A DNA stretch of 64,000 nt, from NCBI RefSeq assembly GCF_000517085.1, contig NZ_KI912107.1:5019980-5083979 (forward strand), in the 5' to 3' direction. A program made the translations under genes and the position numbers. How positions within the stretch are numbered: the stretch's first letter is position 1; each line of letters begins with the position of its first letter. Shown in pieces: positions 41,553 to 44,158 of the stretch. This DNA comes from Saccharicrinis fermentans DSM 9555 = JCM 21142 (lineage in GTDB: Bacteria > Bacteroidota > Bacteroidia > Bacteroidales > Marinilabiliaceae). The notes under the pieces are model-generated. The model worked only from the letters and a program-made list of their open reading frames with translations. It searched no databases and had not been told where the DNA came from.

Positions 41553-41570
41553 GGCTATAACCCGGAAAAT

Positions 41571-41693
41571 GCATTAGAAAATCTATTACGCCTTAAAATG
41601 GCTTCAAAAGAAGTCACTTCGTTACTTTTCTTCAACTCACCATAGCTGGTGCTATGCCTCATCTCAGAAAAGCCTTCTTTTATTGCTATTTAG
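41571..41693 (+). repeat. nested palindrome element, copy 1 (right side incomplete)
   Basis: Apical hairpin CATAGC-TGGT-GCTATG (41641-41656), flanked by conserved TTCAACTCAC and CCTCATCTCA. The middle helix CTTTTCT/AGAAAAG (41625-41631 with 41666-41672) and outer helix AAAAGAAG/CTTCTTTT (41606-41613 with 41674-41681) enclose it. A weaker AATGGC/GCTATT helix follows outside. The outermost arm seen in copy 2 has no partner here because the element is interrupted by the GTTG tract. Confidence 0.75.
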
Positions 41694-42062: not shown

Positions 42063-42307
42063 AAAAAGGACGTGTACATAAGCAGCAAGAGCAAGGTGTG
42101 TATCAAAAGAATCAATCTATCCTCTCTATACAGAATCAATATTTCCAATTTAATAAATGCATTCAAGTAAAACATAGAGGGTGACAACGTATCCATAACC
42201 ATATTCAATAACTCTCAATGAATGAATAATCCCCATTTAAATATACAACTATCAGTAAAAGACCGCAGGGCAGGCCAGAACAATAGCCGTGGCCGGCGGT
42301 GGCGAGA
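42063..42307 (+). repeat. 245-bp direct repeat, copy A (contains GC-rich core 5)
   Basis: Begins AAAAAGGACGTGTACATAAG and ends after the GC-rich core (42263-42306). Identical to copy B at a constant offset of 575 bp except for one base (T versus A in CAAC[T/A]ATCAG). Confidence 0.9.
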
Positions 42308-42366
42308 GAGTTTCAAGGGCGCACTTGAGGTGGTTGTGCGCCGGACGGAATTATTACCCAAAAGCT

Positions 42367-42510
42367 GCATTAGAAAATCTATTACGAATTAAAATTGCTG
42401 CCAATCAAGTCGCCAGCTAACTTGTTTCAATTCACCATAGCTGGTGCTATGCCTCATCTCAACAAGTTCTTGATTGATTGCACTTTTAATTCTCATGACG
42501 AAGTTCTAAT
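42367..42510 (+). repeat. nested palindrome element, copy 2 (complete)
   Basis: Same apical hairpin CATAGC-TGGT-GCTATG (42436-42451) and same conserved flanks as copy 1, but different arms that still pair: middle AACTTGTT/AACAAGTT (42419-42426 with 42461-42468), outer CAATCAAG/CTTGATTG (42402-42409 with 42469-42476), then TGC/GCA and GAATTAAAA/TTTTAATTC (42386-42394 with 42484-42492), and finally ATTAGAA/TTCTAAT (42369-42375 with 42504-42510). The whole is a 140-base interrupted palindrome. Confidence 0.8.
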
Positions 42511-42637
42511 ACATCATTTGGGTTCGCTGATGCCGGGGAGGTAGTGATCTATTGTTCTAGACCTTTTTGGTTCTTTTTATGGCAATGACAATAACGAAGT
42601 TATCATGAGGGCCTTTTAAAATTTTACCTTCCCGAAT

Positions 42638-42882
42638 AAAAAGGACGTGTACATAAGCAGCAAGAGCAAGGTGTGTATCAAAAGAATCAATCTATCCTCT
42701 CTATACAGAATCAATATTTCCAATTTAATAAATGCATTCAAGTAAAACATAGAGGGTGACAACGTATCCATAACCATATTCAATAACTCTCAATGAATGA
42801 ATAATCCCCATTTAAATATACAACAATCAGTAAAAGACCGCAGGGCAGGCCAGAACAATAGCCGTGGCCGGCGGTGGCGAGA
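42638..42882 (+). repeat. 245-bp direct repeat, copy B (contains GC-rich core 6)
   Basis: Second copy of the 42063-42307 repeat with a single observed difference. GC-rich core at 42838-42881. The near identity points to recent duplication or gene conversion, with copy 2 of the palindrome lying between the two. Confidence 0.9.
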
Positions 42883-43108: not shown

Positions 43109-44158
43109 ATGACAGATAAGAGAATTGAGAATATAAACGTCAGTGCTGAGGATGCGATCATCACTCCTAACCAGCTAAAAGATCTTTATCCTTTAAATGA
43201 GAATATTATTAGAACCATTGAAAAAGGGCAAGGTACAATCAAGAATATACTTAGTGGGGAGGATAAGCGAATATTAGTGGTTGTTGGCCCCTGCTCTATT
43301 CATGATATAGATGTAGCGAAAGCCTATGCACAAAAGTTAAAAAAGTTAGCCGACGAACTAAGTGATACTTTATACTTGGTGATGCGGGTCTATTTTGAGA
43401 AGCCGAGGACTACTGTCGGATGGCAGGGATTAATTAATGATCCTTTTCTGGATGATTCCCATCAGTTAGAAGAAGGTTTAAAGCAAGCACGTGAACTATT
43501 AACTTATATAGCTGAAATAGGTTTGCCTGTGGCGGGAGAGGCGCTTGATATTGTAACGCCTCAGTATATTCAAGATCTTATTTCCTGGACAGCCATTGGA
43601 GCCAGAACCACTGAATCGCAAAGCCATCGAAAAATGGCCAGTGGTCTTTCCTCTGTCGTTGGTTTTAAGAATGGGACAGACGGAAATATTAAGATTGCGG
43701 TGAATGCTTTGGAATCTGTCGCATCACCTCATAATTTTATTAGTATTGATCCGGATGGTCATGTGGCTGTTGTTAGAACCAAGGGCAATTCGAATACGCA
43801 TATTATCCTACGGGGAGGTAAAGAACCCAATTATGATAGCGATAGTGTTGCGCGGTACGAAAAGTATCTGGCGAAGGTTGGTTTACCAACCCGGATGATG
43901 ATTGACTGTAGTCATGCCAATAGCAATAAAAAGGCTGCCAATCAAAGGTTGGTTCTAAAAAGTATTGAAGAACAGATAAAGACAGGAAATAAATCTATTA
44001 TGGGAGTTATGATTGAGAGTAATCTTTTTGCAGGGAAACAATCTATTCCAGCTGATATTACTACCCTGCAATACGGTGTTTCGGTAACCGATGAGTGTAT
44101 TGGATGGGATGAAACCGAAGAATTATTAAAAGCCTTTGCTACTTCCATCCAGTCATAA
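43109..44158 (+). CDS. 3-deoxy-7-phosphoheptulonate (DAHP) synthase, AroF/G/H type
   Basis: First enzyme of the shikimate pathway: phosphoenolpyruvate + erythrose-4-phosphate to DAHP. It has 349 residues, the length of E. coli AroF/G/H. Class I motifs are present: VVVGPCSIHD with the metal-ligand Cys, MRVYFEKPRTTVGWQG, the substrate-binding GARTTESQSHR, MIDCSHANSNK with the metal-ligand His, MGVMIESNL with Glu, and SVTDECIGW with Asp. The N-terminal extension (about 45 residues) is the region through which such enzymes are feedback-inhibited by aromatic amino acids; which one cannot be told here. It is a single-gene unit with a clear terminator after it. Confidence 0.95.
   Translation: MTDKRIENINVSAEDAIITPNQLKDLYPLNENIIRTIEKGQGTIKNILSGEDKRILVVVGPCSIHDIDVAKAYAQKLKKLADELSDTLYLVMRVYFEKPRTTVGWQGLINDPFLDDSHQLEEGLKQARELLTYIAEIGLPVAGEALDIVTPQYIQDLISWTAIGARTTESQSHRKMASGLSSVVGFKNGTDGNIKIAVNALESVASPHNFISIDPDGHVAVVRTKGNSNTHIILRGGKEPNYDSDSVARYEKYLAKVGLPTRMMIDCSHANSNKKAANQRLVLKSIEEQIKTGNKSIMGVMIESNLFAGKQSIPADITTLQYGVSVTDECIGWDETEELLKAFATSIQS

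Follow-up and report, generated by a model that had tools for sequence, protein, structure and literature searches.

The NEMIS or Correia elements of Neisseria have ends of the IS630/Tc1 type and use TA targets. They are MITEs of about 107 and 155 bp, the longer of which is almost always intergenic, and their transcripts form stem-loops that have been proposed as substrates of RNase III (PMC2229807). RUP of Streptococcus pneumoniae is likewise a MITE, and its mover, IS630-Spn1, was assigned from ends and target (PMC2229807). Predicted stem-loop structures have also been described for MITEPye1 of Paracoccus yeei, which was assigned to IS1182 (PMC11578231), and for BrickBuilt of Porphyromonas gingivalis, an intergenic MITE of the Bacteroidota with 23-nt direct repeats (PMC4596501). 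REPs are 20-40 bp long, and one of their ends is tagged with GTAG or CGTC (PMC3733652). IS1247, a published element of the IS1380 family, has direct repeats of 5 bp (PMC3281130).

The locus studied here lies in a stretch of 64,000 nucleotides (the window) of Saccharicrinis fermentans DSM 9555 = JCM 21142, contig NZ_KI912107.1, positions 5,019,980 to 5,083,979. Its two hairpin repeats belong to a parasitic MITE family of the IS1380 type that is spread through a group of Bacteroidota and for which no known name was found. The interior of this MITE is a hairpin that is unusually well conserved and strand-polar.

Copies in the window and in the S. fermentans genome

Both nested palindromes reported in the initial annotation are present where it had placed them (Table 1), and the apical hairpin said to be common to them, CATAGC-TGGT-GCTATG, is exact in each. 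When up to 3 mismatches were allowed, this hairpin had 3 matches in the window compared with 0.33 expected, and none of 100 shuffles reached 3. The arms of the two copies differ in sequence with pairing kept, as had been claimed. The length of copy 2 is the modal length of the family, and its fold gave z = -4.3 on the plus strand and -4.6 on the minus strand, with 0/200 shuffles as stable on either strand; the values for copy 1 were -2.4 (plus; 6/200 shuffles as stable) and -3.6 (minus; 0/200). The two further paired shells ascribed to copy 2 proved to be no addition, as copy 2 is full length and copy 1 is truncated. The lost sense left end of copy 1 is replaced by another repeat (AGTTGGCGAG...), to which the copy is fused, and the outer part of one of its arms is therefore missing. 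Both copies sit between a 5S rRNA gene (end 40658) and an open reading frame starting at 43109, whose product we take to resemble DAHP synthase. This whole stretch is a mosaic of repeats, in which an exact 245-bp direct duplication (42063-42307 and 42638-42882) was also observed. The flanks of copy 2 are not identical (TATTA/TTCGC), and neither copy in the window shows matching flanks.

Table 1. Positions of the two element copies and their parts in the window
Feature	Position	Strand	Remark
Copy 2	42357..42522	minus	full-length 166-bp element, arm type a; minus is the sense and more stable strand
Copy 2, left terminal inverted repeat (sense orientation)	42504..42522	minus	CCCAAATGATGTATTAGAA
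Copy 2, right terminal inverted repeat (sense orientation)	42357..42375	minus	
Copy 2, conserved apical hairpin	42436..42451	minus	sense CATAGC-ACCA-GCTATG
Copy 1	41561..41691	minus	truncated element, arm type b; sense left end and its terminal repeat missing
Copy 1, apical hairpin	41641..41656	minus	

Further copies, for which the initial annotation had recommended a search, are numerous in the 5.98-Mb genome of S. fermentans. The core pattern at up to 3 mismatches gave 50 matches and the reversed pattern none, blastn with copy 2 gave at least 48 matches with fragments included (40 of 206 candidates scored), and covariance model R1 matched 87 of 150 scored candidates. The stretches examined held 76 non-overlapping copies or fragments. 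The S. fermentans copies comprise arm types a and b together with a divergent set of single copies; among the 50 of the 76 that could be classified, 20 were a-a, 24 b-b and 6 mixed, one of the latter (C3:660226) being a near tie. Additional copies with unpaired arms had been named beforehand as an observation that would contradict a selected fold. Such arms were found in the 6 mixed copies and not in the other 44. The mixed copies speak against any rule demanding pairing in all copies without exception; as their arms do not match, the subfamilies recombine.

Several other forms were observed. Half elements of S. fermentans (C3:2787016, 2798377, 3533291, 2170054, 2170973 and 2694169; C4:8179, 8931 and 9851) end near the apical hairpin and run on into a common sequence, GGGTYCTAAGATGA or AGAGCCTAAGATGA. 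Very short forms of about 40-70 bp, consisting of the terminal arms only, occur at L164 (G004), L165 (G006), L182 (G001) and C3:241168 (S. fermentans). At L061, L062 and L064 (S. fermentans C3), stretches with 23S rRNA genes also contain clusters of the element, and a 23S 60-mer of the window is also present in all three. At L072-L076 and L084 (S. fermentans), copies of type b are fused at one identical point to a fragment which by eye resembles the transposase gene at L063 13580-15259, presumably an IS66-like one.

Regarding the genomic context, 77 copies were judged in named loci, of which 69 had both neighbours within 800 bp and 8 lay farther from them. None of the 77 was inside an open reading frame of at least 90 codons, as called mechanically (genes split by copies, e.g., at L105, escape such calls). 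Between co-directional genes, 23 of the 69 intergenic copies were in sense and 13 in antisense orientation, while 18 lay between convergent and 15 between divergent genes. There is no clear orientation bias, and position therefore does not support read-through from neighbours. The Bacteroidota-type promoter consensus is TTTG-N18-21-TAnnTTTG. It was found in full in 0 of 78 copies; when its last G was left out, 38 of the 78 copies had it on the sense strand, close to the 3' end of that strand, and none had it on the antisense strand, compared with 0.6 in shuffles, and since the copies share ancestry this promoter-like motif is only a lead.

Distribution, target sites and the IS1380 partner

A covariance-model search beyond S. 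fermentans, also proposed at the outset, revealed matches in several genera. With the model built from the S. fermentans copies and up to 150 candidates scored per genome in the genus search, 150 of 150 scored candidates matched in Labilibacter sediminis (G005), and 7, 7 and 6 copies were found in the congeners G001, G003 and G006, respectively; there was no match in G002, G004, G007 and G008. The S. fermentans core at up to 2 mismatches was not found in the other eight genomes of the genus set, and at 3 mismatches it gave one match each in G002 and G003, a number no higher than that obtained elsewhere with the reversed control. The exact core had no match among the named genome contigs. A looser core pattern located 107 stretches in the named genomes, the hosts being L. 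sediminis, Carboxylicivirga, Saccharicrinis, Draconibacterium aestuarii, Plebeiobacterium sediminum, a Prolixibacteraceae MAG and two Bacteroidales MAGs. Order-wide, with 10 candidates scored per genome and stricter filters, at least 8 of 295 genomes matched, S. fermentans included, and the plasmid collection gave no match to the element.

The family element is 166 bp long, has no transposase gene and occurs in many dispersed copies, as is typical of a MITE. It has terminal inverted repeats (CCCGnATTATGyATTAGAA; CCCG..ATTAGAA / TTCTAAT..CGGG) and, at most of the insertions examined, identical 5-bp flanks. In L. sediminis, the 5-mers to the left and right of the element were identical in 41 of the 49 copies inspected (shuffled mean 15.5; 0/10000 shuffles as high). 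The named collection spans several organisms (L324, L329, L331, L333, L335, L338 and L340 are not from L. sediminis) and contained 109 cores away from locus edges, for 96 of which both ends could be located; identical 5-bp flanks were present at 78 of these 96 insertions, against a shuffled mean of 30.2 and again with 0/10000 shuffles as high. The target consensus is TTNAA, the counts per position among the 78 being T 76, T 78, any, A 78 and A 72. The length of the element was 166 bp in 82 and 186 bp in 8 of the 96 copies. At L105 of L. sediminis, a MITE copy splits a Y1 transposase gene. Identical TTNAA flanks together with this split gene define the element, on sequence evidence, as a mobile transposon inserted by staggered cuts. 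The 186-bp variant at L286 (Prolixibacteraceae MAG) is flanked by TTTAA at either end, and its 3' arm contains a small additional stem; at L398 (L. sediminis) another transposable element, which we assume to be IS4-like, is inserted inside a MITE copy.

An intact transposase of the IS1380 family (NF033539, 258 bits at a cut-off of 180; Pfam DDE_Tnp_1_4) was found in the sister species G002. The ends of the G002 element, CCCGAATTATGCATTAGAA and CCTGCTCTATGCAATAGAA, match those of the MITE, and its flanks are TTAAT/TTAAT, which makes an IS1380 transposase the likely mobiliser. Two MITE copies of L. sediminis agree with the first of these ends at 17-18 of 20 bases. A search for the terminal repeat covered the seven congeners other than S. 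fermentans and G005; in the four congeners without model matches it occurred at 0-1 mismatches in three places: at the end of the intact transposase gene in G002 (0 mismatches), at the end of a broken transposase gene in G008 (1 mismatch), and in a short form with terminal arms only in G004 (0 mismatches). Order-wide, 8 of 13 loci with the same or related transposase genes or remnants have such an end at up to 3 mismatches, four of the 13 on both sides (L235, L364, L365 and L376), and the ends at most of the 8 adjoin TTTAA, TTAAA or near forms; the remaining five (L366-L369 and L374) show no such end, L366 beginning at a contig end. In G184, a genome from another family of bacteria, the ends of the MITE copies (L352 and L354) agree at 17 and 19 of 20 bases with those of a different IS1380 element (G006, L392). 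Matches between MITE ends and IS1380 elements were thus obtained in two cases, G002 and G006 L392. IS1380 is well supported as the partner family of the MITE, and we infer that transposases of this group move, or once moved, these elements. The ends of L352 and L354, CCTGAACTATTCATAAATTT, look as if a MITE interior had been taken up by a second IS1380.

The G002 protein as a query had no match in the genome of S. fermentans or of L. sediminis, and matches to the family model were weak, two in the former and one in the latter, and all fell below the cut-off. By these searches, no genome of the genus combines many MITEs with an intact matching partner, and neither S. fermentans nor L. sediminis was found to have an intact partner of its own. 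In G261, a single MITE match was obtained, and such an IS is present there only as remnants. The draft assemblies may miss the partner gene, or it may have been lost. Other candidates were rejected. A transposase gene near the terminal repeat in L. sediminis, which is the sub-cut-off match of the family model in that genome and presumably IS4-like, belongs to an element that sits inserted in a MITE, and the IS1380-family genes of G006 (L392) and G003 (L395) were not accepted as partners of the genus type because the ends of their elements differ from those of the genus-type element.

Covariation and strand polarity of the fold

The conserved loop with covarying stems, inferred initially from two copies, was seen in many copies of several genera when controls were included. 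The fold was derived from 23 S. fermentans sequences. In 76 distinct rows from five genomes, two of them antisense and a few truncated or chimeric, 93.2% of the cells pair compared with 38-43% when slid, and in 42 distinct rows without any S. fermentans sequence 91.8% pair compared with 38-46%; the fitting of the alignments to the covariance model raises these pair counts, and the cells are not independent events. Both sides changed at 34 of 45 pairs in the larger set (18.9 shuffled) and at 37 of 45 in the smaller one (23.0 shuffled), the shuffle control being inflated by kinship of the sequences, and the covariation score of the 42 rows was 0.502 compared with at most 0.088 when slid. The other-genome alignment was made from 43 loci selected for variety, including 7 of the many L. 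sediminis loci; eight antisense matches were removed, and L123, L127, L128, L133, L349 and L351, mostly truncated or low-scoring, were omitted. Unpaired columns carry 1.25 bits and paired columns 1.10, and some G-U pairs are fixed in most rows (e.g., 56/75 and 53/76). The matched changes in both arms along the whole element keep the hairpin fold and suggest that a single-stranded form does something.

Some subfamilies hinted that the 5' loop (ACTTCGT) pairs with the 3' bulge (ACGAAGT) in a pseudoknot. This was not supported; the mean longest complementary run was 3.67 compared with 3.62 in shuffles, of which 207 of 500 were as high. The statement that no named family fits the core agrees with Rfam 15, which gives no match at the element in the window. 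Among six copy-bearing loci, a single Rfam 15 match reached E<=1; it was to a snoRNA model, scored under the cut-off of that model and lay beyond the bounds of the element.

When folded as RNA, the sense strand was the more stable one throughout a selection of 35 copies from several genera, and the same held for 64 of 67 copies in a larger set, from whose alignments five and nine row-name patterns (antisense, truncated, chimeric or poorly aligned) had been excluded. Relative to dinucleotide shuffles, the sense z-score was lower in 26 of the 35 copies, higher in 6 and tied in 3, and the difference in stability between the strands owes part to base composition. Among pairs predicted on both strands, G-U outnumbered A-C by 65 to 31 in the larger set and by 48 to 15 in the 42 sequences, 22 of which had more G-U and 5 more A-C. 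RNAalifold on A5 gave -32.6 and -7.6 kcal/mol for its two strands. Polarity and G-U excess favour selection on one strand, as RNA or as single-stranded DNA; since the copies share ancestry, the G-U/A-C bias is support rather than proof. Neither a cruciform nor the copying of arms predicts such a bias, which therefore speaks against both.

Interpretation and relation to described elements

Based on the results of this study, the explanation that accounts best for the whole is an IS1380-type MITE with dispersed copies, in which the ends and the fold of one strand are kept and the arms recombine; we put its probability at about 0.8. Dispersed copies, common ends, 5-bp TTNAA duplications, the IS1380 match in the sister species and covariation in 42 sequences are all seen directly. 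An IS1380 transposase would bind the CCCG...ATTAGAA ends and mobilise the element, inserting it at TTNAA. Selection would preserve the fold of one of the two strands; RNA is the most likely form on which it would act, and single-stranded DNA in the course of replication or transposition a less likely one. Recombination swaps arms between subfamilies, giving rise to mismatched chimeras.

The initial annotation had considered a REP/RAYT-like system, i.e., hairpins that are REP-like repeats moved in single-stranded form by a Y1 (HUH) tyrosine transposase. The search for Y1 genes that it advised gave matches in 9 of 9 genomes of the genus, 51 in total, and one of the 4 in S. fermentans lies about 180 bp from a copy. 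However, 31 of the 51 Y1 loci were scanned with the model and a copy was present in the examined flanks of 2 only, and the Y1 gene of L. sediminis mentioned above carries the element as an insert. A length of 166 bp and CCC...GGG ends also disagree with the size and tag of REPs (PMC3733652); the element is not a tagged hairpin of 20-40 bp, and the 31 Y1 loci scanned do not show the pattern of a Y1 gene flanked by repeats. The 5-bp TTNAA duplication and the CCCG...CGGG ends, as in the IS1380 family, point to a DDE transposase, and a REP/RAYT-like system is accordingly not supported and very improbable. It is scarcely credible that the repeats are a stand-alone family of structured RNA genes which only appear mobile through recombination. 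Strong covariation and a conserved loop would agree with such genes, but the many sites with 5-bp target duplications, and the ends in common with insertion sequences, speak against them.

Long palindromes are corrected by template switching. An ordinary MITE with a functionless palindrome could thus keep its arms complementary if template switching during replication copied one arm of the hairpin onto the other, and the exchange of arm types and the internally deleted copies indicate that rearrangement is frequent. However, template switching should erase mismatches and internal loops, and these stay at fixed places; moreover, the unpaired columns carry more information than the paired ones, particular G-U pairs are held, and the process gives no reason for G-U over A-C. 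A functionless palindrome is therefore considered unlikely. Selection could also act on the fold in double-stranded DNA, where a cruciform or a long inverted repeat would help the transposase to bring both ends together. The family is mobile by inverted repeats, and 9 of the 35 copies have no sense advantage relative to shuffles of the same composition, both of which would fit. A cruciform, however, folds both strands and predicts no polarity, in conflict with the greater sense stability in 35/35 copies, the difference between the A5 strands and the excess of G-U over A-C on common pairs, so that this possibility appears quite unlikely.

The polarity of the IS1380-type MITE leads to a more specific proposal, which is tentative and which we hold with considerable doubt: the MITE may encode a structured RNA. 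One strand would be transcribed, its loops (around CUUCGUNAUGA, UGUAAUAGAUU and GAGGCAUAGC-ACC-GCUAUGGUGA) would be bound by protein or RNA, and the RNA would govern the spread of the element, e.g., through control of the IS1380 transposase or through processing that shields host transcripts. If this is true, selection acts on the RNA as well as on the ends throughout an order of bacteria. Definitions of bacterial MITEs usually rest on the ends, and the interior is regarded as filler; here the interior is one long polar fold. If polarity means RNA, the family provides a natural case in which to test whether a non-autonomous transposon depends on a non-coding RNA for its existence. The family would, moreover, be a MITE family linked to IS1380. 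In the open literature, as represented by titles and abstract openings outside ISfinder and subscription journals, no IS1380-linked or Bacteroidota hairpin MITE was found, a silence that is weak evidence of absence.

In behaviour, the closest described elements are NEMIS, ERIC and RUP (PMC2229807), MITEPye1 (PMC11578231) and BrickBuilt (PMC4596501). The NEMIS/Correia elements are similar in size to the 166-bp MITE and differ in host group. The description of BrickBuilt does not mention IS1380 (PMC4596501), and for neither MITEPye1 nor BrickBuilt is a test of covariation reported in the accessible parts of the papers (PMC11578231, PMC4596501), whereas covariation was tested in this study. RUP resembles the present case in that its mover was assigned by matching ends and target; it differs in being an element of 107 bp with IS630 and TA, compared with IS1380, TTNAA and 166 bp here. 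The IS1380-family insertion sequences themselves share the 5-bp direct repeat (IS1247), and the G002 element has the same ends and the same TTNAA-type target as the MITE, which differs from them in having no transposase gene.
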